A DNA stretch of 64,000 nucleotides from Stigmatella aurantiaca DW4/3-1. Lineage in GTDB: Bacteria > Myxococcota > Myxococcia > Myxococcales > Myxococcaceae. Numbering within the stretch: the first letter of the stretch is position 1; each line of letters opens with the position of its first letter. The stretch is from assembly GCF_000165485.1 (NCBI RefSeq), contig NC_014623.1:2995501-3059500 (forward strand), read 5' to 3'. A program made the position numbers and the translations under genes. This document shows positions 12,326-48,361 of the stretch, in pieces. The notes under the pieces are model-generated. The model did not search any database. It had not been told where the DNA came from and saw nothing but the letters and a program-made list of their open reading frames with translations.

Positions 12326-12328
12326 GAA

Positions 12329-15102: not shown

Positions 15103-15470
15103 TCAATGGCGACCGGCAGGCCGACCTGGGTGGCGACCGGCGTGCAGATGCCGGTGTCGACGCCGGGCATCTCGATAGAGACCGCCAGCGCGTAGTGCTT
15201 GCTGCGATCGCGCTTGGGCTGGTCCTTCCACCAGCCGCTCACCGGGTAGACTGCAATGACGCCGCGCTCGGCGAGGTCGGCGGCATTGCACGAGAGAATG
15301 TCCGAGTGGAGCGAGCCTCGGTTGCGGGCGTGCTCGCCGAGGTACCACTCCGACTAGTCGCCGCCGGTGGTGGGCTTGGCCTCTCCCTCCTCGAGCGCCT
15401 GCTTGTTGAGGCGCTCGTGGAACTCGGTAGGCGCAGCTCCTGCCAGAGTTATGGAGCGCCCGCCGCCTCG
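15103..15470 (-). pseudogene. C-terminal remnant of an S8 (subtilisin-like) peptidase
   Basis: On the minus strand the last 85 codons read SEWYLGEHARNRGSLHSD...GVIAVYPVSGWWKDQ...YALAVSIE, ending in VAIEP and a TAA stop. This matches my memory of the C-terminal module of defence-associated S8 peptidases that pair with AAA ATPases. An in-frame TAG (15354-15356) sits just before SEW, and the upstream residues (HERLNKQALEEGEAKP) continue the same protein. The catalytic Asp/His/Ser domain is absent. The 5' edge overlaps the last codons of the DUF2357 gene in another frame. A protease gene was apparently deleted here. Confidence 0.65.
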
Positions 15471-17473
15471 CCTGAGCGAGAGGAGCACCGCGCACACGAC
15501 GCGCTCGGACAGAGGCCGCACTCGGGACAGCGGAACTGGTCCAGCGGTCGTTCGGCGCAGGGTTGAGCCCAGACGTCGAGGCCAAGCACACGATCCGGCC
15601 ACTCACGTGCCGACGAAGTGTGAGCCGCTGCTTTCACATCGAGGCCGGGTTGACCGACGTTGAGCGCCCGGTACCGGTGCCCGCAGGCGACGCACGGGCG
15701 CGTCCCCCACTTGCTTCCGCATCCGGGGCAAATCGCCCACCACGTCGCATCGGAGCCGTCGGGCCGCTGGCCTGGGCGGGCCTCTACGAGCCCCTGGCCG
15801 CCGCAGATGGGACACGCGTCGAGCCCAGACAAGCGATGCCGGGCGTCCTCGATGAAGGCGTCGAAGGCGGTGATGGCCTCTCGCGGTGCGACGGCGAAGG
15901 CCTGCTTGGCGGCCTTGGCGCGCTGCGCGTTGGCGTCGAGCTCCTTCGCCTTCGCCGTCGACCAAGCGCGGGTCTCCGCGAACTCTCGGTCATTGGGCGC
16001 GCGGAAGACGATGAGGCGGTCGCCCTCATACCGCAGCCAGTCTCGTCGCCCGGGCCACTCAGGCAGCGCGCGGATCGTCGTCGCTGCGGGGTAGTCCGGA
16101 ACAGCGGCGCGACTGAGCCAGCCATGAAGCAAGCGAGCCATGCGCTCTTCGGAGTCGATCCCCCACGGTGAGCACGCGAACAGCACCGCGCGCTGGCCGA
16201 TGCTCCAGCCCGAGGCGCGGTCTGCATCGACGAGCGCTACCGGGCGACCGACATGAACCACCACGACCTCGTCGCGACCGTCATCGAGGGCTTCGACCTG
16301 CGTGAGCGTGGCCGCTACATCGGCCGTGGTGAGGTCAGCGCACAGAGGCTGCAGGCGCAGAGTGCGCTCGCCGGAGAGCTGCACAAGCCCGTGCGCCTCC
16401 GCCTGCACGCGCACAGGCGACCATCCGCTCTTGCTGAGATCCCAGCCTTTCCCACGCACGGCAGCAGACCATCCCAGCGCTTGGAATCCGCGCACCACGA
16501 GGTGCAGGACGAACCGGTCCCAAGCAGCGGCCTCGCGCTGACGGCGTGCCGCGCGCTGCGCGATCGTCTCATGGTGCTTGTGCCCGAACTTCACCCAAGC
16601 GCGCCAGAGGGCGGCCACCTTGCGGTAGTTCGGATCGTTCACGAGGATGTTCGTTGGCTTGAGGGCGAGCGCCACGGTGCCTCGGCGCGGAACGTGCAGA
16701 TACAGGGGAGTGCCGAGGAGCGTCTGGAGGTCTCGCTGCGCGAGTTCCAGCCGCCTCATCGTGCGATCAAGCTCCTCCTCCGTCTTTGACTCCAACGTCG
16801 TCGACCAGAGTTCCGAGATGCGGTGCGCGCGCCTGAACGACGTTGCTCGGATCTCCTCCCCATAGTCGCGACTGGCGTCGAGGATCTCCTTGATCTTCCG
16901 CAACTCTTCTAGCCGCTTCGCTAGGTACGCGAGCAGGTGATCGACAAGGCGCACCGCGACGCGGTTCTCGTACAGGTTCCACTCGTCCTCGATCTGCCGG
17001 GCAAGTACGCGCGAGGGCTGAATGCTTCGCAGCGTGCGGTGTTCCCAATCACCGGGATGCGATACGAGTTCGGCGACGGCGCGAACCGGCGTGCGCCGCG
17101 CTCGAGACACCGGCAGGCGCTCTTCATCCACGCGGAGGTGCAGGCGCGGTTTGTGGCAGACGTGTTGAAGGTGCTGAAGGTGTCGAGCGATCTCAAGATC
17201 GAGCGGTTGCGGCCGCGCGCGCTCAGCGAGCTTCTGCGCGACCGGCGGTGTGTTCGCGTACGCGTACCAGGTTGCGTTCTCGCCGACGGCCTCGGCGAGC
17301 CTCACGACGGCGTCCGTCTCCAGCTCACCAGGCCATCGGCCGAGTACCGTGTCGGGGTCGATGCCAGCGAATTCGTCGCCGAAGCGCTGTCCATCCGCCA
17401 GCCATGCGTCGCAGAACGCAGGCACCGGGAAGGGATGTTCCGTCCCGTCAAGGCGGGCGACGAACTTGGTCAC
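15449..17473 (-). CDS. DUF2357 protein (McrC-position partner of McrB) with zinc ribbon tail
   Basis: GTG 17473 overlaps the McrB-like gene stop as GTGA and is preferred over the longer frame. The protein has about 674 residues. It resembles the DUF2357 family, which is encoded next to McrB-type GTPases and often stands where McrC nucleases do. The C-terminal ~150 residues hold several Cys pairs (CPICGG, CPGCGSKWG, CVACGHRY, CPECG), consistent with zinc ribbons. I could not assign a nuclease motif with certainty. Its 3' end is abutted by a truncated peptidase gene, so the last ~15 residues may be an altered C-terminus. It belongs to the TerY operon by tight overlaps. Confidence 0.75.
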   Translation of the reverse strand: MTKFVARLDGTEHPFPVPAFCDAWLADGQRFGDEFAGIDPDTVLGRWPGELETDAVVRLAEAVGENATWYAYANTPPVAQKLAERARPQPLDLEIARHLQHLQHVCHKPRLHLRVDEERLPVSRARRTPVRAVAELVSHPGDWEHRTLRSIQPSRVLARQIEDEWNLYENRVAVRLVDHLLAYLAKRLEELRKIKEILDASRDYGEEIRATSFRRAHRISELWSTTLESKTEEELDRTMRRLELAQRDLQTLLGTPLYLHVPRRGTVALALKPTNILVNDPNYRKVAALWRAWVKFGHKHHETIAQRAARRQREAAAWDRFVLHLVVRGFQALGWSAAVRGKGWDLSKSGWSPVRVQAEAHGLVQLSGERTLRLQPLCADLTTADVAATLTQVEALDDGRDEVVVVHVGRPVALVDADRASGWSIGQRAVLFACSPWGIDSEERMARLLHGWLSRAAVPDYPAATTIRALPEWPGRRDWLRYEGDRLIVFRAPNDREFAETRAWSTAKAKELDANAQRAKAAKQAFAVAPREAITAFDAFIEDARHRLSGLDACPICGGQGLVEARPGQRPDGSDATWWAICPGCGSKWGTRPCVACGHRYRALNVGQPGLDVKAAAHTSSAREWPDRVLGLDVWAQPCAERPLDQFRCPECGLCPSASCARCSSRSGEAAGAP

Positions 17474-20088
17474 GCCAACTCCTCGCCCTTCTTCGCGGCA
17501 ATCTCGGTATCGATGAGCGCCACGCACCGCTCGGGCAGGCTGTTTCCATCGAGCTTGCCCCACGCTATCTCCAGCTTGGTGCGCAAGTCCTCAAGCGCTG
17601 CTGCCCGCACGTCGTGTCGGTCCTTCAGCTTCCGCAGCACCTTGGTGACGAGGAGGTGATCCATCGCCTCGCCGACGGAGCCACCCGACTCGACGACGAC
17701 CGGCAGGTATCGCGCGAGCTGGTGCTCGAGGCGGTTGCCCCAGCCGACCCGGAACCGCTGCTGGAGGTCGTCAGCGAAGGGCGCCTTGCGCAGCCATTGC
17801 GTAGCCTTCTGCACGGCTGCGGCCTGGGCGGTGGCGGCCTCTGCGAAGGCGGCCTGCAGCTTCTCGTAGGAGATGGCGCTGCGCTGGCCGCGCTCCTCTA
17901 CCTTGAAGTGCGCCGCCTCCGTCTTGCGCGGCATCTCCATGACGTGGGCGCGGTCGTACGTCTTGTCGGCGAACTCCGCAGTGCTCTCGTCGTGGTTGGC
18001 CGTGCCGATGAACCAGACGTTGGGCGGGACCGGCAGGTGGCGCCCATCGATCATCAAGCGCGGGGCGTTCGTGACCGGGTCGTTCACGAGCGTGAGCCGC
18101 CGAGCCTCCATCGGCTGCTCGAGCGCCGAGAGGAAGTCCGCGAAGAACTGCTCCGGCCGAGACAGGTTGATCTCGTCGAGCACCATCATGAACAGGCGAT
18201 CGCGGTAGGCCGGGGTGCCAGCTTTGTAGAGTGCCTGCAGGAAGTTGGTCGCGTAGTAGTGACGGTGGAAGGCGTTGTAGTAGCCGACGAGGTCCTGGCG
18301 GTCGCGCCAGCCAGCCTGCACCTCGACGATCTCGATTCCGCCACTCACGGCGCTCGTGAAGGCGAGCGGCAGGCTCGTCTTGCCGGTGCCCGAGATCCCC
18401 TGGAGCAACATCAGGCGGGTCATGGCGAGCCCACCGAGGAAGGCCCGCACGTCGCGGTCGGCGTAGTAGAGCGTTCGCCCCTCTACGCCGGTCGCGATGC
18501 GGTGACGCAGATCGACGGCGAACTCCTTGAGCGTCGGCGTCGCCCTGCCGAGAGGCGTCGTTGTGCGCGCCTCCGCCTGGAGTTCCTCCCTCTCGTCGAG
18601 GCTCGTCAGCGCGGTCATCGGGTTGCGGTGATCCTCCTGCCGGGTGAGCTCGTCGACGCGTGCGCGGAGCTCGTCGACCGCCCCGTCGAGGAGCTGTTTG
18701 TGGACCTCGAGCGCCTCCTTGTGCTTGCGCAGCGCCTCGAGCTCGATCGCGGCCAGCCGCCGGGTCGCGAGTTCGCCTTGAGCCTTGGCGAGATCCCCAT
18801 GGAGCATCGCGCGCTCCTCAAGCCACGCGGACCGCATGCGCTCCAGTTGGGCGAGTCGCTCGGCGGCCCGAGCATCGGGCCGCTCCCTGAGCTGCTGAGC
18901 GAACGCGTCGCGGTCCTTCTCGGCAGACGTCAGCGCAGCGAGGATTTCCTCGGGCGAACGGTCTCCGAAGCGGCGATCAAGTTCCTTCCGCGACTCAAGG
19001 TCCTTCCAGTACGCGTCGCGATCGCTGCGTGCGTCGTGCAATTGCTTTTTCAGCGCCTCGGTCTCGTGGCGCAGCTTCTCGGCACGTTCGGCGACTAACC
19101 GTTCTACTTTGCGGTCGAGGCCCGCGCGGTCCTCGTCGTGGAGTTCCTTCGCCGCCTGGAGATCGAGTTCTGAGGCGCGTTGGGACTTCTGCTTCTCGTT
19201 CAGCGTTCGCTCGCGCTCGTCGAGGTCGGCCTCACGCCGATCAAGGATATCGGTGCGGCGCTTGAGTTCCGCCTGCCACGCCGCTTCCGCCTGCTCGCGC
19301 TCCAACGCGAGGTGCGCACGCAGCGCGTCGAGCTTCTCCTTCCTGTTGCGAATGACCTCCTCATCAAGTCGGCGCCGCGTTTCGGCCTCGGCGACGCTGC
19401 GCTTGGCATCCTCCTCTGCCCACTTCGCGGCGCGCGTAGCGGCTTTCGCGCGCAGTTCGTCCTCGGCGCGCTCGCGCCCGGCGGCGATCTCGGCTTCGAG
19501 GCGGTCTCGCTCCTCTCGCAGCCGCTTGACCTCCTCTTCGACGGGCTTGAGGACGCGTGCCTTCTCGGTGAGGAAGCCCTGCTCCGCGTTCAGCTCACGC
19601 TCTGCTAGCCGCGCGCCCTGTTCGGCGAACTCGGCTTCCTTCGCGCGTGCGGCAGCTTCTCGCTGGGCGACCGCCTCGAGACGGGTGAGCAGCTCAAGCT
19701 CCATCTGTTCGGCCGCCTTCTTCGCCGCGGCGATCTCGTCGTCGACGGCCTTCTTTTTCTGCCGGAGCGCCTCCTCCTGATCGCGCCTCTGGGTGGAGAG
19801 GCGCGTCTCCTCGGCCTTGTTGGCAGCTTCCTGCGAACGCGCCTTCTCGAAGAGCGCACGTGCGTTGCCAAGCAACCCCTCGACGCGCTTGAGGTTTTCC
19901 TCGAGGGTCGGCCCTACCGGCTCCGCCACGGCGCCGGTGGGTGCCGGGCCGTGGTCAGTGTTGAGCGCCTCGACCTGCGCCGCCGCTGCGTCGAGCCTCG
20001 TGAGTTGTTCTGCCATGGCTTCCGGTCGCGTGGGCGGTGGCGGCTGTTTCTGGGGCGGCGTGAATTGACGGTTCTTGTTCTTACCCAT
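17470..20088 (-). CDS. McrB-like AAA+ GTPase with long coiled coil
   Basis: The start is set at ATG 20088 (MGKNKNRQF), 14 bases after the upstream stop. The protein has ~872 residues. Residues ~50-490 are a very charged Glu/Arg/Ala-rich coiled coil. Residues ~540-800 form an McrB-type AAA+ module: Walker A LLQGISGTGKTS (~562-573) and Walker B MMVLDEINLSRPEQFF (~636). McrB family members hydrolyse GTP and drive DNA translocation for a nuclease partner; here the partner would be the DUF2357 protein. The coiled coil replaces the DNA-binding domain of classical McrB and suggests filament or partner binding. No loss of nucleotide-binding residues is seen. Confidence 0.87.
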   Translation of the reverse strand: MGKNKNRQFTPPQKQPPPPTRPEAMAEQLTRLDAAAAQVEALNTDHGPAPTGAVAEPVGPTLEENLKRVEGLLGNARALFEKARSQEAANKAEETRLSTQRRDQEEALRQKKKAVDDEIAAAKKAAEQMELELLTRLEAVAQREAAARAKEAEFAEQGARLAERELNAEQGFLTEKARVLKPVEEEVKRLREERDRLEAEIAAGRERAEDELRAKAATRAAKWAEEDAKRSVAEAETRRRLDEEVIRNRKEKLDALRAHLALEREQAEAAWQAELKRRTDILDRREADLDERERTLNEKQKSQRASELDLQAAKELHDEDRAGLDRKVERLVAERAEKLRHETEALKKQLHDARSDRDAYWKDLESRKELDRRFGDRSPEEILAALTSAEKDRDAFAQQLRERPDARAAERLAQLERMRSAWLEERAMLHGDLAKAQGELATRRLAAIELEALRKHKEALEVHKQLLDGAVDELRARVDELTRQEDHRNPMTALTSLDEREELQAEARTTTPLGRATPTLKEFAVDLRHRIATGVEGRTLYYADRDVRAFLGGLAMTRLMLLQGISGTGKTSLPLAFTSAVSGGIEIVEVQAGWRDRQDLVGYYNAFHRHYYATNFLQALYKAGTPAYRDRLFMMVLDEINLSRPEQFFADFLSALEQPMEARRLTLVNDPVTNAPRLMIDGRHLPVPPNVWFIGTANHDESTAEFADKTYDRAHVMEMPRKTEAAHFKVEERGQRSAISYEKLQAAFAEAATAQAAAVQKATQWLRKAPFADDLQQRFRVGWGNRLEHQLARYLPVVVESGGSVGEAMDHLLVTKVLRKLKDRHDVRAAALEDLRTKLEIAWGKLDGNSLPERCVALIDTEIAAKKGEELA

Positions 20089-20102
20089 TCGGTAAGCCTC
20101 TT

Positions 20103-21587
20103 TCAGCGAGCAAGGAGGAGGGCTTCGACGGCCGCGTACGCCGTGTCGACGTGCCGCTGGACCTTCTGAGGCCAAGTCGCAGTACCGTCGTGGGCAGCGC
20201 GATCGCGAGCCGTCGCGAGGTCGTCGAGCCGATGCAGCAGGTCAGGTGACGTCCGAGCGGCGCGGCGTAGCGGATGCGCGTCGTCCCGGTCAGCGCAGAG
20301 CAGCCCGAGCACGACCAACGGCCGGAGAGTGCCGCCACCGTACTGCTCGGCGGACTGGACCTTCCCTCTCCGCACAGACGAGAGAGTCTTGGGCAACGGA
20401 CTCTGGAAGTTCAGGTCGGCGGCCATCGCATCGAGGAGGCGCCGGTTGAACTCCCAGTCGGACTGCGCCAGCTTCATGAACAGCGGCGGTCGCGCGTTGC
20501 GGTAGCGCTCGTACACGATGTGCAGCGCGCGTTCGACCGCACGCTGCGCCTTGACGAGCACGTCGTCCCACTTGTCGAGCGGCGCGTCGTAGCTCTGGGC
20601 CTCGAGCAACGCGCGTTGCATCGCGACGAGTCGGTCTCGCGCTGCCTCGTGCTGGCGGATCGCGAGGGTCAGCCGCTCTTCCACCCTCCACGCCGCTTCA
20701 GCCTGGAACTGCCCCAGCGTCGGCGCGCTCGGATCTGACCCGACGAGCGGCGCGAGCCATGGGCGAAGGCCCTTATGGCTGTCGAGCCGCTCCTCCAAGC
20801 GGGCGCGTAGCTCGACGGCTTCGCCGTGACCGAAAGGATCGTCGACCATCCAATCGCCCGAGTCGTGGCGGCACACGCGCATCGCCAAGAGATAGGGCTG
20901 GGGCCTGTCGTCGACGAAAGACACCCGCTGGAGACGCGGCACGTCGCGATCGTCATCGATCTCCTCGAAGTCACGCTGACGCTGGCGCCGATGGAGCCTC
21001 GCAGCGCGAAGCACATCTCGCGCGGAGGGACGCACCATCACCACGCCGTCGCGGGCGGTGGGGAGAATGCTAAAGGTCCTGTCCTTCCATGGATCGCCCG
21101 CGCTGCCGCTCAGCAGCACCGGCCAGCCGTCGTCGTTTACCTGCACGTCCGCGACCGGAAGATCGCCGGTCAGGAAGCGCGGCCACAACTTGCCGGTGAA
21201 GGCGTCGGAGAGAACGTGTCCCACTTGTGCTTCGTCGGCTGGCTCCTCCTCGATGTCTTCGAGCATCGTGAGGCCACGCTTGGTGGGCTTGCCGACATGA
21301 TCGAGCAAGTCCATCTGCTGGAGTTCCAGCGCGACCAACCCCGCGAGGTCCGGCGCTATGAGGAGCCGCTCGCCCACTTCGTTGATCCGCACGACGCCGG
21401 CTCGCGCAAGACCAAGGACCGCTCGCTGGAAGAGGTTGAGCTTGCGCTCTTTGGGCACCGGCGCGACGACGCGCCAGGCGAAGAGAGGCCAGAGCACCCA
21501 GCGCGCGTTGGGATCCTTGCCGTAGTTGAGTCGCAGGACCGGCGTGTCCTTGTCGAACGCGGGGCCGAAGCTATCGAACGATGCCAT
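20103..21587 (-). CDS. Unknown 494-residue protein of the TerY-McrB operon
   Basis: I recognise no family. The start overlaps the helicase gene end by 17 bases, and the stop is 14 bases before the McrB-like start, so it is a core operon member. The N-terminal ~130 residues have a winged-helix-like alternation of helices and strands (LNLFQRAVLGLARAGVVRINEVGERLLI). The C-terminal half is largely helical. No Cys clusters, signal peptide or membrane segments are visible. It may be a structural or specificity subunit that links the helicase and the McrB-DUF2357 pair. Confidence 0.8.
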   Translation of the reverse strand: MASFDSFGPAFDKDTPVLRLNYGKDPNARWVLWPLFAWRVVAPVPKERKLNLFQRAVLGLARAGVVRINEVGERLLIAPDLAGLVALELQQMDLLDHVGKPTKRGLTMLEDIEEEPADEAQVGHVLSDAFTGKLWPRFLTGDLPVADVQVNDDGWPVLLSGSAGDPWKDRTFSILPTARDGVVMVRPSARDVLRAARLHRRQRQRDFEEIDDDRDVPRLQRVSFVDDRPQPYLLAMRVCRHDSGDWMVDDPFGHGEAVELRARLEERLDSHKGLRPWLAPLVGSDPSAPTLGQFQAEAAWRVEERLTLAIRQHEAARDRLVAMQRALLEAQSYDAPLDKWDDVLVKAQRAVERALHIVYERYRNARPPLFMKLAQSDWEFNRRLLDAMAADLNFQSPLPKTLSSVRRGKVQSAEQYGGGTLRPLVVLGLLCADRDDAHPLRRAARTSPDLLHRLDDLATARDRAAHDGTATWPQKVQRHVDTAYAAVEALLLAR

Positions 21588-24500
21588 GCTCGCCTCCGCA
21601 CAGGTCGGTGAACGCGCGCAGGGCGCGCAGTGGCTTCTTCGCGTCGGTGGCGCGAACGAAGTCTAGATCGCCCACTGCGACGAGCAGCCGGTGCTGTCGG
21701 CTCATCGCGACGCAGAGACGGTTCTCCAGCATCAGGTGGCCGAACTTCCTGCGCTGCTCCTCGTCGGTCTGTCCCGGAAGCTCGTTGCTGCGAGTGACCG
21801 ACAAGAACACCACATCGAACTCCTTGCCCTGGAAAGCGTCGACGGTGCCGATGCGCAGGCGCTCGACCGTTTTCCCCTCATGGTTGAGGGTGGTCAACCA
21901 CTCGTCGGCGACTCGCCATCCGCGCTCGGTGTTGGCCTTCTCGGTCAGGCCGGTCTCGATCATCGCACGCCCGATCTCGTCTACCTGGGCGCTGTAGAAC
22001 GCGATGACGCCGAAGGTGAACTTCGGATCGTGCTCGATGAGCCGCCGGACCTCCTTGGCGATCGCCCGCGCTTCGACGGGACGGCTCTTGCTGGTGCCAC
22101 GCACCTCGCGGCCCGTGCGGCCATCCGCGGGCACATCAAGCCATGCGGCGACGCGCGGAACGCCGTCCTTCACGTAGCCCGGCAGGTCGTGAACAAAGTC
22201 CGTAGCCGCACGCGGGCTCTCGATGGTTCCATCGTCGTGGACCTCATAGAACTCGCGACTGACGTAGGCGCCGAGGACAGGGTGCATCCGGTACTGCGCG
22301 TTCAGCGTCACCGTGCGGTCGATCCCGTCCTTCTGCTGCAGGGCCCGGAGCAGCACCCACATGCGCTCGAACAGGCTGGCTTGGACGGCGTCGAGGGTCT
22401 GCTTCTCGACCGTTCCCTGCTCCACACCCTCTGCGAGCTGTCGCTCCACGTCGGGCTCAAGGAGGTGCGGCAACTGACGGTGGTCGCCGACGAGCACAAC
22501 ACGGCGTTTGGCCATGCTCAGGGGGATGAACAGGTCGAGCGGGTTCGCGCGCGCGGCCTCGTCGACGATCACCGACTCGAACGTCGTCTGGCCTTCGTTG
22601 ATCCCCCGGACCCGGCGCATCTCGTTGCCGGCGGCTTGCTGCAGCGTTGACGCGAGGACCACCGTGTAGTGCTCGAGCGTCTTTCGCACCCCCTCGGGAT
22701 CGGACTCCAAATCGTTCAGGTACGAGACGAGCACTGCTTCGTCGCCCGCTCGCGTCGTTGAGAGACGCCGGTCGACGGCGTCAAGGATCTCAAGCAGCAC
22801 CCGCTGGGTCTCGTCGTCGAGGCGCGGCTCCACCGAAGGTGGCGACTGCGTGAGCCGGTCGATGAGCGCGTCGCGCAACGGCCTGCCGTCGGCGAGCCAC
22901 GGGGGTACCGTCTCGGGCTCCACTGCGGTACAACGTTCGAGAAAGGCGCGCTCGTCCGGCGTGAGCACAGCCTCGAGCCGCTGGAGTGCAACGCACGCCC
23001 TCACGGGGCCGTCGTCGGAGAAGGGGGCGTCGTCCACACGAATACCCCGAGCAGCCTTGACCAGCTTCTCGGTCTCCTCCGGGTCGCCGAGTCCAGCAGG
23101 GCGTTCAAGAGTTGATGCACGCTCGATCGCCTTGTCGCGAAGATCGGGCGGGAGAAGCCCGTAGAGCACGCGCACGAGGTCGCGGATGCGGTTCGCTTGC
23201 TCCGTCGGCAGCGAGCGGGTGCGAACGCAGGCGAGCACGATGTTGCGCGCCTGTGAGAGTCGCTCTGCTTCGGGCGGAACTCGCACCCGAGCGCGAAGTT
23301 GCTCCGCGCGCTCGTCCACGAAGGCCTGCGCCGGATCGAAGGAGCTGTCAGCGCTGCGACGCCGCCGACCAACCTTCATCGTCGGCAGCCCGAACACCTC
23401 GGTGCGCTGCGCGACGTTCTCCACAGCATCGTGCTGCGCGGCACAGACGAGGATGCGATGCGAGAGCTCAACGCCTTCATCGGCGAGGACGGCCAAGCAG
23501 CGCTCGATGGCGGTGATGACCTTGGTCTTGCCGGTCCCCGGCGGCCCCTGGATCAAGCACACGTCGGGCGTGTTGAGAGCGTGCTCGATGGCCTCACGTT
23601 GGCGTTGGGTCGGGCCGCTCGCCCCAAACACCTCGCGAATCACCGGCTTGAGCTTCGGCCCGTCCACGCTGATGCGGCTCCGCCGAGCCATGGGCGCGGG
23701 ACGACCTTCCATCAGCAGGCCGAGCTGCGGCATCGGACACCTGCCGGTTCTCAGCGCCTCCTCGGCACGTTCGCGTCGTTTGAGCCGAGCTTCGTCGCCG
23801 CCCGTCGACAGGTAGAGGTACCCCGCCTTCGGGGGCTTGGGCTGCTCGTCATCGTCGTCCGGGGGAGCCAGATCGATGAACCGCTTGTGCTCGTTCACGT
23901 TGGTGATCGGTGCGCTGAGGCGTTGCACCTTCGGCCCTGACTTCTTTGTCGGCGGTGGTACAGCAGACGAGTCCTCGTCGAACGCGGGCGCGTGGTCGCC
24001 AGCCTCGAGCTCGAAGCGCTCCGAGTCACCGAGCAAGGCGAGTCTTGCTGCGAGATCCTCGCTAGGCGTCAGGTGGAAGCGCCATCCTCCATCCCGCCGT
24101 CGCTCGGAGTTCTGATACTCGATCGCACCGAGGGTGCGAGCCCGCCGCAGGACGCTTTCGCGCTCAAGCTTCTGGTACTCCTGCCAGGTGCGTAGATAGC
24201 TATCGCTGCCCGCTACGGCCTCGGAGAGCGTGGTCCGCACCGCTCCGTGGAGTTCGGCCGCGAGGGTTGCGTCCACGATGGAGACCGGCGCGTAGAGCAG
24301 CATGAGGCGCTGCTGGTTGTTCCTGCCGCCTTTCACGACGCGCTCGATCCGCAGCTTGTTGTCGCGGCGCTGAACGTCGGCGGCGACCTTGAGGCCGTAG
24401 ATGCGGAAGGCATCGACGTTCCCTGAGTACAAGAAGCGCCGAAGCTCTGGAGGTTCGCCAGGGGCGGGAGGAAGCAGCAGCCGGTCCTCCAGCCAGGCAG

Positions 24501-24885
24501 AGACATCGAGTGCGGTGCCACCTACCTTGTGGCCTCTCCGCACGTCGTCCATGACCTTGTCGTCGAGGCCGATCTGCATCGGTGCCGTCTCGCGACGCTC
24601 TTCGGTGAAGCGCCGTGTCTCCAGGACGATCGCCTTGACGGTCGCTTGCGCGACGTAGGCGACGACGGGGAATCCACTCGTCATCACGTCGATGAGCTGG
24701 GTGGTGTCGGGCGGTGTCACGCCCTCGACGGCGCAAACCACGTCTGCGTAGCGTAGGAGGGTCTGATCTCCCGAGCGCACCAGCGTGACCTCTTGCTCGC
24801 GCGCGGGCAACGATTGGAGCGGGCCGCTCGTGGACTTCACACGCAACGTCGCGGGGACGCCTCCTGTGGCTTCGGCGGCCTTCAT
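21571..24885 (-). CDS. Superfamily 1 (Upf1/DNA2-like) helicase
   Basis: The start is ATG 24885, overlapping the kinase stop (ATGA). The protein has ~1104 residues. The N-terminal ~420 residues are unassigned. Helicase motifs are: I LIQGPPGTGKTK (~445), II VIVDEAARANP, III VGDHRQLPH, IV LNAQYRMHP, V TVDAFQGKEFDVVFLS and VI RLCVAMSRQ. These are diagnostic of the Upf1/DNA2 branch, often annotated AAA_12, which moves 5' to 3' on single-stranded nucleic acid. No C-terminal nuclease domain is visible. In this operon it would process or unwind DNA together with the McrB-like and DUF2357 proteins, under control of the kinase-phosphatase pair. Confidence 0.88.
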   Translation of the reverse strand: MKAAEATGGVPATLRVKSTSGPLQSLPAREQEVTLVRSGDQTLLRYADVVCAVEGVTPPDTTQLIDVMTSGFPVVAYVAQATVKAIVLETRRFTEERRETAPMQIGLDDKVMDDVRRGHKVGGTALDVSAWLEDRLLLPPAPGEPPELRRFLYSGNVDAFRIYGLKVAADVQRRDNKLRIERVVKGGRNNQQRLMLLYAPVSIVDATLAAELHGAVRTTLSEAVAGSDSYLRTWQEYQKLERESVLRRARTLGAIEYQNSERRRDGGWRFHLTPSEDLAARLALLGDSERFELEAGDHAPAFDEDSSAVPPPTKKSGPKVQRLSAPITNVNEHKRFIDLAPPDDDDEQPKPPKAGYLYLSTGGDEARLKRRERAEEALRTGRCPMPQLGLLMEGRPAPMARRSRISVDGPKLKPVIREVFGASGPTQRQREAIEHALNTPDVCLIQGPPGTGKTKVITAIERCLAVLADEGVELSHRILVCAAQHDAVENVAQRTEVFGLPTMKVGRRRRSADSSFDPAQAFVDERAEQLRARVRVPPEAERLSQARNIVLACVRTRSLPTEQANRIRDLVRVLYGLLPPDLRDKAIERASTLERPAGLGDPEETEKLVKAARGIRVDDAPFSDDGPVRACVALQRLEAVLTPDERAFLERCTAVEPETVPPWLADGRPLRDALIDRLTQSPPSVEPRLDDETQRVLLEILDAVDRRLSTTRAGDEAVLVSYLNDLESDPEGVRKTLEHYTVVLASTLQQAAGNEMRRVRGINEGQTTFESVIVDEAARANPLDLFIPLSMAKRRVVLVGDHRQLPHLLEPDVERQLAEGVEQGTVEKQTLDAVQASLFERMWVLLRALQQKDGIDRTVTLNAQYRMHPVLGAYVSREFYEVHDDGTIESPRAATDFVHDLPGYVKDGVPRVAAWLDVPADGRTGREVRGTSKSRPVEARAIAKEVRRLIEHDPKFTFGVIAFYSAQVDEIGRAMIETGLTEKANTERGWRVADEWLTTLNHEGKTVERLRIGTVDAFQGKEFDVVFLSVTRSNELPGQTDEEQRRKFGHLMLENRLCVAMSRQHRLLVAVGDLDFVRATDAKKPLRALRAFTDLCGGEHGIVR

Positions 24886-26210
24886 GCCGACCTCCCGATC
24901 ACAGCGACGCGCTGGGGCTTGTCGGGATCCTCGAAGAACACCATCCAGCCATTCGGAGGGATGATGCGCCCACGCCCAGAAACTTCGTGGCGCTCGTCCT
25001 GCGCCTTGCCGACCGGTGCTACCCACGCAGCGCAGCCTGAGTGAGCGCGCACGGAGATGCCGCGTTGGACTGGAATGAGCTCGACGTGAGGTGCGCGCGC
25101 GGCGACGCCGGTCTGGCCCTCCGTCACCCGGCGCGTGAGCACTATGCCCTCGCCGGTCAGCGGAAGCTGCCAGAGCCGTGTCGCGCCCTCGACCAATCCC
25201 TTACCGGGCTGCCACCGAGTGAGTCGAACCGGCGTGATGGGCGGACGCGGCTCCTCGCACCACGGGCACTCCGACGACGTGACGAAGTAAGTGCCTCCGC
25301 AGCCGGCGCAACTCACCGTCTGGTCTGCGGCGACGTGCAGCCGCTCGACCCAGTCAGAGACGCTGGTTCGCCGCTTCCGATCGGTCACGCCCTCCTCGAA
25401 CGTCCGCCGGGCGAGTTCCAAGAGTCGTCTGGCGAGAACGACATCGGCGGGTAACCCCGTCGAGCAGCGATTGCGCTCGTCGGAGGAGTGACCGACCCAC
25501 GGGAGGCGCCCAGCGAAGGCTTCTTCCTCGAGTTCGGGTTCGCCGTCGTTCACGAGATCGCCAATAAGCGGGTGGGTCAGCGTGAGCGTGTGCCACGCGA
25601 GGACGGCGAACGCCCACGCGTCGGAGAGCGACGTGCAACCGCTGGTTCCGGCGACCACCTCGGGGGCGCCGTAACCCGGCGTGTAGATAGCGCGGCGTGG
25701 ATCTGACTCGTGGCTCAGGTTGTCGAGGTCGATCAGCCAGGCCTCGACGGCGTTGATGGGCTGCGAGATGAACACGTTGTTGTGCGACACGTCGGCGTAG
25801 ACGACGCCGCGCGCGTGCAGTCCGAGCAGCGCTTCTCCGGCGTGCGCCAGCAGGCGCAGCCGCCGACGCAGGCTGCCCGTGTCGATGTGCCAGCGCACAA
25901 GGTCCTTGGAGGGAGCCTCTATCAGCGCCTTGATCGGCAGCATGTCACCGAGGAACTCGGCGACGTAGCCGACGTACGGCTTCTTCAGCACCGCGATGGG
26001 CTTTGCGACGTGCAGCCCGGCGAGGTCGAGACGACGGACGAAGGCGAACTGGCGCCGCAGCACCTCGGCGTCGGCACCGGGGTTGAGCAGCTTCACGATG
26101 CGACGGCCCCCCTTGGCGAGCCACACCTCGCCCTGGCCGCCCGCGCCGATCTTCTTCGCGAGCGTATGGACAGCGCCGGACTCGTCGACGACTTGTTGGA
26201 TCGGGGTCAT
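24882..26210 (-). CDS. TerY-P triad protein kinase with zinc ribbon
   Basis: ATG 26210 overlaps the PP2C stop as ATGA and is preferred to the in-frame ATG nine bases upstream. The protein has ~442 residues. The kinase domain has a Gly loop GAGGQGEVW, a catalytic loop YADVSHNNVF in place of HRDxKxxN, and DLD in place of DFG; the catalytic Asp and Asn remain. A zinc ribbon (CAGCGG...CPWCEE, ~residues 305-325) follows, then a ~110-residue C-terminal beta-rich part. A kinase with C-terminal Cys pairs next to PP2C and a vWA protein defines the TerY-P phosphorylation triad. The divergent HRD and DFG motifs are shared by several members of that group. Confidence 0.85.
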   Translation of the reverse strand: MTPIQQVVDESGAVHTLAKKIGAGGQGEVWLAKGGRRIVKLLNPGADAEVLRRQFAFVRRLDLAGLHVAKPIAVLKKPYVGYVAEFLGDMLPIKALIEAPSKDLVRWHIDTGSLRRRLRLLAHAGEALLGLHARGVVYADVSHNNVFISQPINAVEAWLIDLDNLSHESDPRRAIYTPGYGAPEVVAGTSGCTSLSDAWAFAVLAWHTLTLTHPLIGDLVNDGEPELEEEAFAGRLPWVGHSSDERNRCSTGLPADVVLARRLLELARRTFEEGVTDRKRRTSVSDWVERLHVAADQTVSCAGCGGTYFVTSSECPWCEEPRPPITPVRLTRWQPGKGLVEGATRLWQLPLTGEGIVLTRRVTEGQTGVAARAPHVELIPVQRGISVRAHSGCAAWVAPVGKAQDERHEVSGRGRIIPPNGWMVFFEDPDKPQRVAVIGRSA

Positions 26211-26902
26211 GGCTTCCACATCACGAGGAGGGTCTTGTCGTCCCGATGGTGCGGGACGGGCCAGTTGCGCAGCTCACGCGCGAGCGCGCGAGCTGGGTGT
26301 TGAAGAGCGCCAAGTTCGTCTGCGACCCAAGTGGCCAAGTCACTGATGCGGCCGGGTTCGAGATCCTCGGACACACCGTCGGTGGCGAGCACGAGCCGCT
26401 CTTGCGGGGCCAGGGGCTCGACGAGCGCGAAGGACCAGTCCGCGAGGGTGTGCGGCGTCCCGAGCGCATGGGTGAGCCCGAAGCCCTCACTGCGCGATGG
26501 GTGGACCACGACGGCACCGTCCGCCCCACGCCGAGCGATAAGGCCGTCGCCGAGCTGCGCTTGGGCAGCTCGACCATGTCCGTCCTCGGCGTAGAACAGG
26601 CAGGTGGTCGACGCTTCGTCCGCTGCGACACGCCCGAGACGAAGCCGCCAAGCGGCCTCGACAATCCGAATCATGTCCTCGACGACGCCCACGGGGGACC
26701 GCTGCCAGAGCCGCCACGCGTCGCGCACCGCCAGCGCTGCGGCGCGGGAACCCTCCCTCGAGCGGGGGCGGCTCCCCATGCCGTCGCAGACGACCGCCAA
26801 GCTCGCGTGGGGAGCTGCGACCGCCAGCCAGGCATCCTGGCACAGCAGCCCCTCCTGCATGTGTCCCGGGCCGCGAACGCTTGTGGCCACCACGCGAACC
26901 AC
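26207..26902 (-). CDS. PP2C-type protein phosphatase of the TerY-P triad
   Basis: GTG 26902 overlaps the TerY stop as TAGTG and gives a 231-residue single-domain PP2C; the longer open frame is inside terY. Motifs are VVCDGMGS (metal-binding DGxG, ~residue 40), a QLGDGLIAR-like strand near ~100, LATDGVSE (~170) and the final HRDDKTLLVMW (~220). These supply the acidic metal ligands of PP2C enzymes. It would remove phosphates placed by the adjacent kinase, on a shared substrate or on the TerY vWA protein. No membrane segment is present. Tight coupling on both sides indicates fixed stoichiometry. Confidence 0.86.
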   Translation of the reverse strand: MVRVVATSVRGPGHMQEGLLCQDAWLAVAAPHASLAVVCDGMGSRPRSREGSRAAALAVRDAWRLWQRSPVGVVEDMIRIVEAAWRLRLGRVAADEASTTCLFYAEDGHGRAAQAQLGDGLIARRGADGAVVVHPSRSEGFGLTHALGTPHTLADWSFALVEPLAPQERLVLATDGVSEDLEPGRISDLATWVADELGALQHPARALARELRNWPVPHHRDDKTLLVMWKP

Positions 26903-27558
26903 TACAGGTCCCAGCCGCCGTTCGGATCGCCCGCCGACGGAGCGACGTTCGGGTTCGCGCTGCGCGAACGCGCCGACACGCTCATCGTGACGAGTTGGAA
27001 GAACTTGCGGATCTGGCGAGCTTCGTCGGCGCGGTACACGCGAGCCTCGGGATCGGCGAGGAAGGCCTGAAGGACGGCGTGGTCGGCGTCGGCGCCGATC
27101 GCGAGCGCCATGCGGAACGCCTTGCCGCCGCGCTCGTTCTTGAGGAGCGACTCGAGCGGCTGCTTCCACTCGTCCGTGGGCTGCCCGTCGGAGACGAGCA
27201 CGATGGTCGGGCGGTACGCGCGGCTCGGCACCGCGTTGCGGTCCTCCACCATCGTGCGGGCGAGATCGAAGGCGGCGCCCATCGGAGTGCCGCCGTTCGC
27301 GCCGAGGTCGGTCCACGCGGCATCGCGGGCGCGGCCGAGCGGGAGGTGGACTCGCGACTGGCCTCCGAACGTGATGACGGAGACGTGGACCTCGGCGCGG
27401 AGGTCGGACTCGTCCTGGAAGGCTTCGATCATCTCGCGCACAGCGAGGTTGAGCGCCTGGATCTTGCCGTCGACGCCCATGCTGCCCGACACGTCGGCGA
27501 GCACCACGACCGGCAGCGGGCGCGCCGCCTGGGTGGTGAACTCCTTAAGCTTGCTCAT
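26902..27558 (-). CDS. terY: TerY-like von Willebrand factor A (vWA) protein
   Basis: ATG 27558 is chosen because it has a strong ribosome site (GGAGG) at ideal spacing; upstream in-frame starts at 27651 and near 27600 lack one. The protein has ~218 residues. The MIDAS metal site is complete: DVSGSMG (~residue 21), the Thr in GGTPMG (~89), and the Asp in LVSDGQP (~120). TerY proteins are stand-alone cytosolic vWA adaptors that work with a PP2C phosphatase and a kinase. It is the first gene of the seven-gene operon, whose transcript probably starts near 27690 from a sigma54-type element. Confidence 0.88.
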   Translation of the reverse strand: MSKLKEFTTQAARPLPVVVLADVSGSMGVDGKIQALNLAVREMIEAFQDESDLRAEVHVSVITFGGQSRVHLPLGRARDAAWTDLGANGGTPMGAAFDLARTMVEDRNAVPSRAYRPTIVLVSDGQPTDEWKQPLESLLKNERGGKAFRMALAIGADADHAVLQAFLADPEARVYRADEARQIRKFFQLVTMSVSARSRSANPNVAPSAGDPNGGWDL

Positions 27559-27701: not shown

Positions 27702-27717
27702 TGCATGTGGCGCGCCA
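27702..27717 (-). promoter_or_regulatory. Sigma54-type (-24/-12) promoter of the terY operon
   Basis: Read on the minus strand this is TGGCGCGCCACATGCA, against the consensus TGGCACG-N4-TTGCA. The invariant GG and GC are 10 bases apart as required, and only two consensus bases differ. It lies 144 bases upstream of the terY start and near a divergent gene for a sigma54-type AAA+ regulator. Part of it is a GTGGCGCGCCAC palindrome, so a dimeric binding site is an alternative. Confidence 0.6.
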
Positions 27718-27959
27718 CGTGCCGCCAGATGGCCGAAGTACCTAATTTTACAGGAGAGCGAGGTCGATCATCAAACTCGCTGAGCGTCGACTTGCTCCCA
27801 GATGAGCAGAAACGTGCCGATGGTATCGTTCAGCATATCTTTGCTCACGCAGCGGCAGCATGATGCCGACGTGGCCCTCGTTTGCTCAGCAAGTGGCGGG
27901 ATTCCGGCGACTTCGTCGGCTGGCACTCTCCTTGAGATAGCCGGCGGTGGAGGTTCACC

Positions 27960-28283
27960 ATGCTCGCCTACGAAGCCGATCGTCGACCTACGCGCCACTA
28001 CAATGCCCGCGCTGCCGAACGGGCGCTCCGCTCCGACATCGAGGAGTTCCTCATGACGTGGGGAACGGAGACGCGCGCAGCCGGCGCCACGCACATCACC
28101 TTGGTCCGCCGCGACCTTCCCTTCGAGCTGCAGGACAGCGAGGAGGCGGATCGTGCCGAAGGGTGGATCATCGTCGCGAGTGACGATGGCTCCCTCATCA
28201 CCTGCTACCGCAGGACCGATGCTTGGCGCTTCGTTCGGCGGAAGAGCCAGATGCGCCCGCGTCGGCGCTCTCGGAGGATTTGA
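27960..28283 (+). CDS. Small unknown protein upstream of the CARF-AAA+ regulator
   Basis: The protein has 107 residues and a good ribosome site (GGAGG six bases before the ATG). It is followed after 28 bases by the regulator gene in the same direction. It contains GWIIVASDDGSLITCYRR near residues 68-85, a beta-hairpin pattern also seen in DUF4258-like small proteins, and a very basic C-terminus (RPRRRSRRI). An overlapping minus-strand frame of similar length lacks a ribosome site and family-like features. It may be a co-regulator, nucleic-acid-binding protein or small toxin. Function unknown. Confidence 0.6.
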   Translation: MLAYEADRRPTRHYNARAAERALRSDIEEFLMTWGTETRAAGATHITLVRRDLPFELQDSEEADRAEGWIIVASDDGSLITCYRRTDAWRFVRRKSQMRPRRRSRRI

Positions 28284-28311: not shown

Positions 28312-30099
28312 ATGACGACCACAATCTCCGTGTCATGGGTGTCGGTCAACAACGACCCCTACGAGCGCGCGAAGGACGGCAGCTACCTCGAACGCGATGG
28401 CGAGAAAACGCCGGGCCCTACGCTGGAGTTCCTCTTCAACGCCGCTTCACCCATCGCGAACCGCGTGAAGAAACACTACGTCTTCGTGCGGCGCCCGAGG
28501 ACGCCCGAGACGGGCGGACGGCTCGTGCATCCGCGTGAGGCCGACGTCGCCGACGAGCTGGTCAAGGCGATCGAGGACCGGAAGGGCGCGCCGGAGGTGA
28601 AGCTCGTGTGGTGGGACACCGGCGCGCCGCCGACAGACCACCGCGAGCTCTTTCTCTTCACGGCCCGCGCGCTCGCCGACATTCGGCGCGAGAACCCGCG
28701 AGCCGACATCGTCGTGAACATCAGCCCCGGCACCCCGGCGGCTCAGACCGTGATGCTCCTCGCGCTTCAGGCGCGGTTGGCAGGCGACGACGTTCGGGCG
28801 TTCCACGGCACGCCTCGGGACAAGCGACGCGGGCCGAACGATGTCGTGCGAGAGGTGCCGTGGAACCTGCTCGCCGAGCTCGCGGCCACGCCCACCGAGG
28901 TCGACGACGCGGGCACAAGGCCCACCGAGTGGAGCCTCAATCGTGCGCGCTCTCCACGGCTGCGCGAGGTCGCCACCCTCGTGAACCAGTACGGCGGGGT
29001 TCCCTTCCCTGTGCTCGTAATGGGCGCGCGAGGGACCGGCAAGACCGAGATCGCGCGCAGGCTGCGTGAGGGGTTTCGCGAGTGGACGGCGCAGTCGCTG
29101 TCAAAGTGGGACTTCCACCTTAATTGCGCTGAGTTCCGAGGCGACGCGAACATGCTGCGGAGCGCGCTGTTCGGTCACGTGAAGGGGGCCCACAGCCAGG
29201 CGCTGAAGGACGAAGCTGGCCTCCTCGAGAAGGCGGCCGACGACTGCGTGTTCCTCGACGAGATCCACTGGATGAACCCGCAAGCGCAGGGCCTGCTGCT
29301 TGTCGCGCTTCAGCGGAACGGGAGCATCCGTCGTATCGGTGGCGACAAGTCGATCCCGGCGAAGTTCAGGCTCGTCGCAGCGACAAACCAGCCGCGCAAC
29401 ATCCTCCGCGAGAAGCTCACGCCGGACTTCCTCGACCGCGTCTCGGATCTCGTCATCGAGCTCCCCGAGCTGCGTGACTGCCGCGAGGATCTCGGCGATA
29501 TCTGGAGGTCCGTCGTGCGCCGCGCGTGCGAAGAGCTGGTGCAGCGCGACCCGGCGCGCGCGATCGGCAGTGGCACTGGCTCTGGGCGTGTCGACGATCT
29601 CGTCGCCGAGTTCCAGCCCCATCACGCCAAGGTCGAGCGCGCGATCGGCGCGATGCGCCTTGCAGGCAACTTCCGAGATCTCGAGAAGCTCGCGCGGCGG
29701 CTCCTCGTTGGTGGGCTCGCGAAGGGGCGCTTCCTCTCGTTGAAGGACGATCTCGTGCGCTCGGAGTTAGACCGCCTCCGCAAGGAGGAGCGCATCGACG
29801 CGGAGCAGGGGGCGGGCCCTGCGACGTCGCTCGTCGACGAGTTGCCGACGGTGGCGCGCTGCGAGGACTACTTGCGCGAGGTTCGCGACGCTGGGACGGT
29901 GCTCCCCGGTCCGGCAGCGGTCGACGAATGGGAGCGTCGGCTTCTGATCGCGGCCCACGCGGTCGGCGGCAGCGGGGCGAAGGCTGCGGCGCTGCTCGGT
30001 ATGAACGCGCGGACCTTCAACGCGAAGATGGAGAAGTGGGACGCGGCAACGACGTCAACCGGCAAGGGGCGGCATCGTGCGCGCTCGGACTTCGAATAG
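28312..30099 (+). CDS. RtcR-like regulator: CARF-like sensor fused to sigma54-type AAA+ domain
   Basis: The protein has 595 residues. The N-terminal ~190 residues contain VVNISPGTPAAQTVMLLAL (~140-160), the nucleotide-binding loop pattern of CARF domains that sense cyclic oligonucleotides; RtcR regulators have such a domain. Residues ~215-430 are an AAA+ module with Walker A GARGTGKTE and Walker B CVFLDEI. A C-terminal Fis-type helix-turn-helix (AAALLGMNARTFNAKM) follows. The sigma54 contact loop normally GAFTGA reads GAHSQA (~residue 300), so activation of sigma54 may be altered. It is divergent from the terY operon and presumably controls it. Confidence 0.82.
   Translation: MTTTISVSWVSVNNDPYERAKDGSYLERDGEKTPGPTLEFLFNAASPIANRVKKHYVFVRRPRTPETGGRLVHPREADVADELVKAIEDRKGAPEVKLVWWDTGAPPTDHRELFLFTARALADIRRENPRADIVVNISPGTPAAQTVMLLALQARLAGDDVRAFHGTPRDKRRGPNDVVREVPWNLLAELAATPTEVDDAGTRPTEWSLNRARSPRLREVATLVNQYGGVPFPVLVMGARGTGKTEIARRLREGFREWTAQSLSKWDFHLNCAEFRGDANMLRSALFGHVKGAHSQALKDEAGLLEKAADDCVFLDEIHWMNPQAQGLLLVALQRNGSIRRIGGDKSIPAKFRLVAATNQPRNILREKLTPDFLDRVSDLVIELPELRDCREDLGDIWRSVVRRACEELVQRDPARAIGSGTGSGRVDDLVAEFQPHHAKVERAIGAMRLAGNFRDLEKLARRLLVGGLAKGRFLSLKDDLVRSELDRLRKEERIDAEQGAGPATSLVDELPTVARCEDYLREVRDAGTVLPGPAAVDEWERRLLIAAHAVGGSGAKAAALLGMNARTFNAKMEKWDAATTSTGKGRHRARSDFE

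Positions 30100-32802: not shown

Positions 32803-32806
<4 letters not shown>
32606..32806 (+). CDS. Small accessory protein of the recombinase cassette
   Basis: The protein has 66 residues and is too short for most gene finders. GTG 32606 overlaps the DUF2924 stop, and the stop overlaps the recombinase start (ATGA). A helical heptad stretch (LVRELQRLNGNLERLVATAELL) suggests a small coiled-coil partner. Function unknown. Its place between coupled genes makes it very likely real. Confidence 0.68.
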
Positions 32807-34352
<1,546 letters not shown>

Positions 34353-34356
<4 letters not shown>

Positions 34357-34775: not shown

Positions 34776-34956
34776 GGCTCTTGTAAGCGACGGAGCCCAT
34801 GTGGGCTGGGCCTTCGTCGCAGAGGGCCTGACGAAGTCGAGCTGTTAGCGACACCTTCACCTCCATGCATTCACCTGCGGCCCAAAGCCCTTGTCGGGCC
34901 GAAGGAGGAACATCTGCTCCTACCGCCCCTGCAGGGGCCATTCACGGGAGGCGTCG

Positions 34957-40256: not shown

Positions 40257-41165
40257 TTGTTCCAACCGCTTAGATTGTCCCTGGTGCTCGTGCTCCTCTG
40301 GGGGACTGCGGCACCAGGTGAGCCCGCGCCTGGGGAGCGCATCGAGCGCACGCGGACTGTCACCGTCGCGAGAGGCCTCGACGAGCCGCTGCCCGAAGTA
40401 CGTGTCGCGGGGGATGTGCCCACGCTGCTCCTCTTTCCCTCGCCGATTCAGAAGAAGACCCTCACCTTCGATGAGTCTCGGATCCGCGTACTGGACGCTG
40501 GGGAACTCTCGGTGATCATCCAAGCCGTGGCGGACCTTCAGGAAGGCGAACGCCACGAGATCGGGGTCTTCTTTGCCGATGGAAGGGCGCCGAGGCGGGC
40601 TGCTTTCGTGCTCGTCACCGACCTCACCGAAGTGGACATCCGGATCGACGTGAGGCGCCCCGAGCTGCCCGCCATGCCTTGCCCGAACGAAGCTCAGCCC
40701 CGGGCGCCACTGCCGGAGGATTTCGTGTTGCTCGGCTATGTGGGCGAGGAAGGTGTTTCGGCGACACCCATCAAAGATGTTGATGCTCCATCTCAGGGTC
40801 TTTCGGCAGTGGTGGGGTATTCTTATCGCGGCCATGGGTGGGGACTGGTAGCTGTGCTGATCAATAATCACTTCTCTCAGCCTCCATGGACACCGCGACA
40901 AGCAACGTTTACAGGAACACGAGGACCGTCGCTTCAAGCGCGGCTGGTGGTGGAGGGTGAAGGCATGATCGGTCCAGGAGAACAAGGGCGAGTGCTCGCC
41001 GTGGTGGACATGCCGACGTTGAGTGCGGACACGTTCTTCACGTTGGAGTTACGTGGAGAGAGCGGCCGCACTCTCAAGCTTCCGAACATACGGTTTCCGA
41101 AAGCGATGATGGAGGGGGGCAATGACATCGAATCTGCTGAGGCTGCCATCTGGTGCCATTGTTGA
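40257..41165 (+). CDS. DUF2381 family exported protein
   Basis: The protein has 302 residues. A TTG start is used, with an aggaggt ribosome site nine bases before it. A signal peptide (SLVLVLLWGTAAPG) is followed by a beta-rich extracytoplasmic protein. The features match the myxobacterial paralogous family TIGR02268/DUF2381, which is typically encoded directly before a membrane Ser/Thr kinase, as here. The stop lies 44 bases inside the kinase gene, so the two are translationally linked. The function of the family is unknown; it may bind the kinase's outer domain. Confidence 0.82.
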   Translation: MFQPLRLSLVLVLLWGTAAPGEPAPGERIERTRTVTVARGLDEPLPEVRVAGDVPTLLLFPSPIQKKTLTFDESRIRVLDAGELSVIIQAVADLQEGERHEIGVFFADGRAPRRAAFVLVTDLTEVDIRIDVRRPELPAMPCPNEAQPRAPLPEDFVLLGYVGEEGVSATPIKDVDAPSQGLSAVVGYSYRGHGWGLVAVLINNHFSQPPWTPRQATFTGTRGPSLQARLVVEGEGMIGPGEQGRVLAVVDMPTLSADTFFTLELRGESGRTLKLPNIRFPKAMMEGGNDIESAEAAIWCHC

Positions 41166-46932: not shown

Positions 46933-46933
46933 C

Positions 46934-48232: not shown

Positions 48233-48361
48233 AGAATCCCCCGAAGCCGAATCACCTGGAACTCAGGAGGAAATGAACCTTAATCCTTGGATTCAGAGGA
48301 GTCAATTTTTTATTGATTTGCTTCTTATGATGGTTTTGGTTGTCGACCTGGGGATGTACTC

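Follow-up and report, generated by a model that had tools for sequence, protein, structure and literature searches.

The window analysed here, a stretch of 64,000 nucleotides from the genome of Stigmatella aurantiaca DW4/3-1, carries a gene for a CARF-AAA+-HTH regulator that begins with ATG, encodes 595 residues and lies exactly where the first-pass annotation had placed it (Table 1). The gene is divergent from an operon which, by gene content and order, is the TerY-P + CoCoNuT arrangement described in the relevant parts of Bell et al. 2024 (PMC11090510). The helicase, VWA, PP2C and kinase genes of this operon are clear; a HEPN domain is recognisable only as an R-x4-H motif, and the match to DUF2357 is weak. 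The McrB-like GTPase matches AAA_5 below the Pfam cut-off and PADLOC PDC-M26A at E 1e-33; it has the NxD motif of the CoCoNuT Type II / III-A GTPases, as defined in the account of those types (PMC11090510). Directly 5' of the regulator lies orf107, which has no Pfam match itself and is related to small ORFs located by other CoCoNuTs, all seven of which match DUF4258 in Pfam. BrnT/RelE-like proteins are reported at this position in the sections of Bell 2024 on such loci, where the RtcR_PspF1 family, its domain order and its link to CoCoNuTs are also already published (PMC11090510).

Table 1. Features of the regulator, the divergent operon and the region between them (positions within the 64,000-nucleotide window)
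Feature	Position	Strand	Basis or remark
CARF-AAA+-HTH regulator (RtcR_PspF1 family)	28312..30099	+	ORF, profile matches, structure models
Regulator domains	CARF ~aa 1-190; AAA+ ~213-400; HTH_8 541-576		
L1 loop GAHSQA replacing GAFTGA	29185..29202	+	aa 292-297; alignments
orf107, 107-aa ORF directly 5' of regulator	27960..28283	+	homology
Sigma54-like -24/-12 element CTGGCACTCTCCTTGAG	27920..27936	+	GA at -12; one copy in genome
Dyad GGCA-N6-TGCC, candidate upstream activating site	27854..27867	.	ends 54 bp before GGCAC of plus element
Sigma54-like -24/-12 element GTGGCGCGCCACATGCA	27702..27718	-	faces TerY-P/CoCoNuT operon
VWA protein (TerY-like), MIDAS DVSGS	26902..27558	-	start set at MSKLKEF; ORF open to 27651
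PP2C phosphatase	26207..27031	-	Pfam; 5' end approximate
Ser/Thr kinase, C-terminal zinc ribbon (C-x2-C ... C-x2-C)	24882..26219	-	Pfam and motif
UPF1-like SF1 helicase, CnuH-like	21571..24882	-	PADLOC MkoA E 6e-86; 5' end approximate
CnuE-like (position)	20103..21587	-	C-terminal R-x4-H (RDRAAH), HEPN-like motif
McrB-like GTPase, CnuB-like	17470..20091	-	Walker A GISGTGKT, NxD motif NHDE
CnuC-like (position)	15449..17563	-	DUF2357 match weak, E 0.007, below cut-off

Further genes are found on either side. A 1.9-kb direct repeat (96% identical; 1-1925 and 46613-48536) flanks a 46-kb stretch containing the defence genes, and each copy encodes a protein of 432 aa (12 differences between the two) in which an AHH nuclease domain is present, matched in the first copy at E 2e-23. 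An MZA-like set (7894-14971, minus strand) lies downstream of the CoCoNuT and is co-directional with it, and consists of a C5 methylase, a DUF4420 protein (MzaD-like, weak), a Z1 protein (MzaC-like) and a HATPase with MTaX1. A large serine recombinase (Resolvase, Recombinase, zinc ribbon; 32803-34356, plus strand) is encoded 2.7 kb 3' of the regulator. Three consecutive genes with no Pfam match (34891-39924, plus strand) also stand near the regulator in the genome G070 (L090 1550-6652; 49-62% identity), where the defence cargo differs; the set possibly marks a shared insertion address. The window also encodes a Ser/Thr kinase (41122-42867, plus strand) like the MAD6 and PD-T4-6 defence kinases (E 3e-54 and 1e-49), and a TPR-CHAT protein (51921-56534, minus strand) with a long internal repeat array, 82-89% identical in DNA.

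The regulator matches the PADLOC model PDLC01994 (RtcR_PspF1--CARF_AAA_HTH) over its whole length (E 9.3e-162, 537 bits; residues 2-575, model positions 2-467 of 468). In Pfam, Sigma54_activat (PF00158) covers residues 213-381 (E 4.2e-30) and HTH_8 residues 541-576 (E 6e-4), and a weak match to Csm6-CARF (residues 120-150, E 0.005) lies below the cut-off. Walker A (GARGTGKT) and Walker B (VFLDE) are both unbroken in the translation, as the first-pass annotation had it, and the likeness to RtcR which it proposed is borne out by profile searches, in which RtcR is a relative. A plain RtcR is ruled out, the score against the RtcR equivalog NF038308 (NCBIfam) being 143 bits where the curated cut-off is 650 bits. 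In the genome overall there are 51 matches to the regulator, with none other inside the window; one protein elsewhere in the genome (L002) is RtcR-like with GAFTGA.

An AlphaFold2 model of residues 1-205, built on 28 aligned sequences (pLDDT 88.6, pTM 0.84) and including NISPGTPAAQTVM at residues 136-148, has a Rossmann-like CARF fold. Its top Foldseek matches are to Csm6 (6tug, E 1.8e-8), and in VIA the same structure is matched with Z 17.2 and an rmsd of 2.3 A over 150 residues. The 50 Foldseek and 50 VIA matches listed are all CARF proteins. The sequence profile alone reaches Csm6 weakly (E 0.012). Because of the model and its Csm6 matches, the assignment of the predicted N-terminal fold as a CARF domain, which had been suggested from the letters alone, is firm, and the sensor part of the regulator is of a known kind. 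Its structural neighbours are cA6/cA4-binding Csm6 proteins. E. coli RtcR is described, in the passages of PMC9650030 on this point, as not responding to oligoadenylates in vitro. The full-length model (pLDDT 80, pTM 0.49) resembles NtrC1 and other bEBPs, and its placement of the domains relative to one another is not firm.

The L1 loop of the AAA+ domain is altered. In an alignment to PspF, F85 is replaced by His, T86 by Ser and G87 by Gln, with no change at the first Gly or at either Ala (PspF numbering as in the review literature). The regulator therefore lacks the intact GAFTGA (Phe or Tyr at position 3) by which a bEBP is recognised. Seven of 60 aligned homologues form a clade with variant loops: GAHSQA in the window, L016, L015 and L017, GVHSQA in L011, GSHSTA in L019 (Massilia) and GSSNLA in L018. 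Phe occupies position 3 in 53 of 53 homologues outside this clade and in none of the seven inside it; position 4 in the 53 is Thr in 48 and Ser in 5, and the sister lineage of the clade also retains Phe (GAFTGA). L010 and L016, whose contigs are equal in length and whose coordinates match, were counted once. The count left out 22 loci, namely duplicates (L009, L010, L067-L072, L026, L023, L042), other or partial proteins (L074, L076, L087, L088, L027, L038, L041, L049, L053) and the broken gene L073/L086. Among these, Phe is present in L027, L038, L049, L074, L087 and L088, the loop of L076 (a bEBP without the CARF motif) reads GAATGV, and a search for the loop in L041 and L053 found none. L073/L086 (in G047), probably a broken gene copy to judge from its frames, is a CARF-bEBP spread over two open frames with the loop GSCTDA, without Phe.

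The loop-variant clade has an SH-aLRT support of 100 in both of two trees made by a quick method, the second of which added L097 and omitted 19 of the 60 rows. Its stem is long: 1.59 in the first tree and 0.91 in the second, where L097 splits it. The AAA+ domain of the clade is set apart by further substitutions, among them Ala (Asn in L019) for Glu in Walker A, Cys for Thr before Walker B and Met for His at 448. Between the window regulator and five relatives (L019 left out), dN/dS is 0.10-0.17 overall, 0.06-0.14 in the AAA+ domain and 0.05-0.19 at residues 281-312 around the loop (0.05-0.09 without L018), values that indicate purifying selection in the clade. Since six relatives are also without the canonical loop, a local sequencing error is ruled out, and with dN/dS well below 1 so is a pseudogene. 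The altered loop reported in the first pass is thus real and lineage-wide (7/7 clade members), and the close homologues share it rather than carrying canonical GAFTGA.

Among the fetched loci, a Phe-loop regulator stands co-directionally just 5' of the VWA gene in 14 rows (L020-L026, L028, L029, L031, L032, L040, L042, L046; L025 and L026 are near-copies) and divergently in a single one (L038, a gene in pieces); in L035 and L036 it lies 3' of CnuB/CnuC-like genes. Where a loop-variant regulator has a CoCoNuT in view, in four loci (window, L016, L017, L019), the arrangement is always divergent. At the Roseomonas locus L021 the genes from VWA to CnuE are 76-86% identical to those of the window and a CnuB fragment is 55% identical, while the regulator is only 34% identical and has a GAFTGA loop; closely similar effectors are joined here to different switches. 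Two other members of the clade have a different setting. L015 (Minicystis) and G070, the genome of L011, both carry orf107, an MkoA-like helicase, X, a PLD protein and the regulator, in that order; in L018 the regulator follows the end of a PLD gene (59% identity, 175 aa). The sister G1050 (GAFTGA; 44% identity in the CARF domain) likewise has orf107, helicase, X, PLD and regulator. In each of L089 (G070), L015 and L101-L102 (G1050) a Mokosh-like operon has its own CARF regulator as the last gene, and on plasmids of Vibrio rumoiensis and Klebsiella pneumoniae (L103 1-2739; L104 1-2739) a PLD-type gene is followed by a GAFTGA regulator, which is sigma54-type and 27% identical to L019. The simplest history, which we infer from these gene orders, would be that the regulator of a PLD operon underwent the loop change and came to be paired with CoCoNuTs later.

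In a broader sample of genomes, L019 is the sole match among 399 of its order, and matches occur in three of 398 genomes of its phylum (L019, the Phe-loop L094, and L095). In the family of Minicystis, five of 108 genomes have a match: that of L015, L097 (the GAFTGA sister), L098 and L100 with Phe loops, and L099, in which no loop was found. A plasmid origin was rejected, the window regulator having no plasmid match at E 1e-30; with L019 as the query five plasmid records are found, of which the best two (Vibrio, Klebsiella) are 27% identical and have GAFTGA. A phage origin was likewise rejected, as none of 49 matching phage records covers 80% of the protein; the ten listed cover 33-49% of it, outside the CARF domain.

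The intergenic region carries sigma54-type elements facing both ways, whose scores all rest on our own matrix, made from the general sigma54 consensus. The minus-strand sites 5' of VWA score 11.5 bits in the window, 12.9 in L016 and 14.4 in L017, above the 95th percentile (10.6) and below the 99th (16.1) of the best scores in random 500-nt stretches of 13 Phe-loop loci (a set without L026, a copy). The plus element CTGGCACnnTCCTTGAGAT is present 5' of orf107 in all five loop-variant loci that have orf107. Its score of 9.9 is within the random range and it is without GC at -12. With at most one mismatch CTGGCACnnTCCTTGAGAT occurs once in each of five of the seven genomes searched and is absent from the G1050 and Massilia genomes; the reversed pattern, used as a control, has no occurrences. 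In 932,379 bp there are five divergent pairs of sites, each of at least 9.9 bits and 190-210 bp apart (a range set after the pairs had been seen). Loop-variant genes are fronted by four of these pairs (202, 202, 200 and 199 bp), one in Massilia. The window, L016 and L017 have DNA in common, and therefore only L019 is independent support for the spacing; its minus site faces a 396-aa ORF (8001-9191) that stands between the site and VWA. In L015 and G070, which have no adjoining VWA gene, the T of TGG is gone (the L015 sequence extends about 3.5 kb in that direction). Phe-loop CoCoNuT loci have a sigma54-like site of at least 11 bits nearby in 12 of 13 cases, ten of them between the regulator stop and VWA and two (13.6, 14.3) 5' of the regulator instead; the remaining locus scores 8.6. 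Sites of the -24/-12 type are thus kept, most plainly where the CoCoNuT operon is present, and rpoN was found in 8/8 genomes searched, among them the genomes of the window, L015, L017, L018 and L019.

The same geometry is seen 5' of orf107 in the sister lineage. G1050 has the dyad GGCA-N6-TGCC, 56 bp, GGCACGTCTCATGCA and 38 nt from GGCAC to the ATG; the window has the dyad, 54 bp, GGCACTCTCCTTGAG and 38 nt. The dyad lies at 54 bp (at most one mismatch) in four of five loop-variant loci, L017 being the exception; L017 also has two additional bases before the orf107 ATG. No such dyad was seen in L019. Single dyads are weak evidence, given their rates in the pooled loci (0.037 per kb exact, 0.73 per kb with at most one mismatch), and it is the repeated position that counts. 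At -12 the GAFTGA relative G1050 has GC and the five loop-variant loci have GA. The threonine of GAFTGA is reported, in the parts of PMC7057263 that treat it, to sense DNA downstream of -12, and a co-adaptation of loop and -12 is therefore plausible. Strict co-variation is unsupported, since L019 still has TTGC at its plus site and the window, L016 and L017 still have TGC at their minus sites. The contrast between loop and -12 is one evolutionary event.

From the sequence and the models, the locus offers a CARF sensor, intact Walker motifs, an HTH, divergent genes, two-sided elements and a dyad, and the regulator is likely the on-switch of an anti-virus (CoCoNuT-type) gene cluster. It would be a ligand-gated enhancer-binding protein for the TerY-P + CoCoNuT operon and for its own orf107-regulator operon. 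The HTH would bind the dyad or dyads; a nucleotide or RNA-end ligand may bind the CARF domain and relieve inhibition as described for RtcR; and the AAA+ ring would then remodel sigma54-RNA polymerase at both promoters, with the His-Ser-Gln L1 loop re-tuned in how it touches region I of sigma54 and -12 DNA, a re-tuning to which the GA-for-GC at -12 of its own promoter may belong. That the protein is a ligand-gated activator, still acting on sigma54 promoters via its changed loop, we put at roughly an even chance. The more specific proposal, that the HSQ loop fires sigma54 polymerase without a Phe-Thr-Gly core and co-evolved with the GA-for-GC at its own promoter, is tentative and somewhat doubtful. 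If true, an activator loop and its promoter fork would have been matched anew in nature, in the switch of a defence system.

The two-sided sigma54-type sites favour, without proving, a different contact with sigma54, one of the possibilities raised in the first pass, over its loss. Neither these sites, nor the neighbouring defence operon, nor the published family had been noticed there. Against an activator stands a published rule: in the parts of Francke et al. 2011 on the loop (PMC3162934), Phe at position 3 of GAFTGA tolerates only Tyr, and other replacements are inactive. His should therefore abolish sigma54 activation, and by this rule the regulator is no sigma54 activator. The loop of L018, GSSNLA, looks as if it were decaying. 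The main rival to an altered sigma54 activator is a protein that no longer activates with sigma54 and serves instead as a ligand-controlled repressor or anti-activator. It would sit on the dyad or the promoter elements and hold both operons off until freed by the CARF ligand, with another bEBP firing the promoters. The rule and the L018 loop speak for such a repressor, as do the change of Phe in all seven clade members and in none of the 53 others, the loss of GC at -12 in the plus element, and some 50 other AAA+ matches in the genome that could supply the activator. Within the window, however, there is no further match to the regulator; the AAA+ domain is under purifying selection (dN/dS 0.06-0.14), which implies that the motor is still used; and in L015 and G070 the regulator stands last behind effectors, as in the GAFTGA sister G1050. 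We consider a repressor unlikely, if well short of negligible.

Activation of a sigma70-family polymerase, in the manner of TyrR, HupR and Caulobacter NtrC, has documented cases behind it in the sections of PMC3162934 and PMC12421884 on such proteins. It fits poorly with the conserved -24/-12-type elements on both sides and with the rpoN of every genome searched, and, by eye, a -10 box belonging to TTGAGA in the plus element would coincide with the start codon of orf107; we regard such activation as improbable. Lastly, the protein could be a plain CoCoNuT-associated RtcR homologue whose loop substitutions are neutral and make no working difference. The architecture and the association are those already described in the account of CoCoNuTs (PMC11090510), and the Walker motifs are unbroken. 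Phe is nevertheless kept in 53/53 other aligned homologues, so the change cannot be put down to neutral drift across the family as a whole, and this explanation seems very improbable. An altered sigma54 activator remains our preferred reading.

Three things are apparently new: a lineage in which the sigma54-contact loop has been replaced; sigma54-type sites at either side of the intergenic region, which in four loci stand 199-202 bp apart; and CTGGCACnnTCCTTGAGAT before orf107, with the geometry of the sister promoter and GA for GC at -12. The string GAHSQA was not found in the main texts of the literature searched, and GAFTGA and CARF were mentioned together, in the portions of text covered, only in connection with Salmonella bEBPs and enhancer-dependent polymerase. 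In the passages of PMC3162934 concerned, GAFTGA is treated as a signature that a bEBP must have to open sigma54 promoters, and predictions of how CoCoNuT-type systems are controlled have so far come from gene order, according to the sections of PMC11090510 on regulation. The clade and its GAFTGA sister with the same promoter geometry offer a natural comparison for the recognition of -12 DNA by the loop, and for asking whether a defence operon can take a changed trigger; a concrete promoter pair, a candidate operator and a regulator are offered for a CoCoNuT-type system.

Among known systems, the RtcR_PspF1 (PDLC01994)/CoCoNuT RtcR-like regulators are the closest, resembling the window in domain order and whole-length HMM match and, as far as the description of their loci goes (PMC11090510), in the TerY-P + CoCoNuT-like operon and the small DUF4258-type ORF. 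They have a Phe loop and are co-directional, whereas the window regulator has GAHSQA and is divergent; the candidate operators also differ, being GGCA-N6-TGCC in the window and CGGAAG-N4-CTTCCG in four of ten Phe-loop loci looked at. RtcR, the activator of rtcBA, is CARF-AAA-HTH and sigma54-type like the window regulator, the loop of which is altered. PspF shares the AAA+ domain (best PDB sequence match, E 4e-20) and, unlike the window regulator, is without CARF and has an intact GAFTGA. TyrR, DhaR, HupR and Caulobacter NtrC are AAA+ bEBP homologues with a defective sigma54 loop, as here. Lacking a proper GAFTGA, they are reported in the relevant parts of PMC3162934 and PMC12421884 to be linked to sigma70; the window regulator differs from these sigma70-linked proteins in pairing a substituted loop with retained sigma54-type sites.
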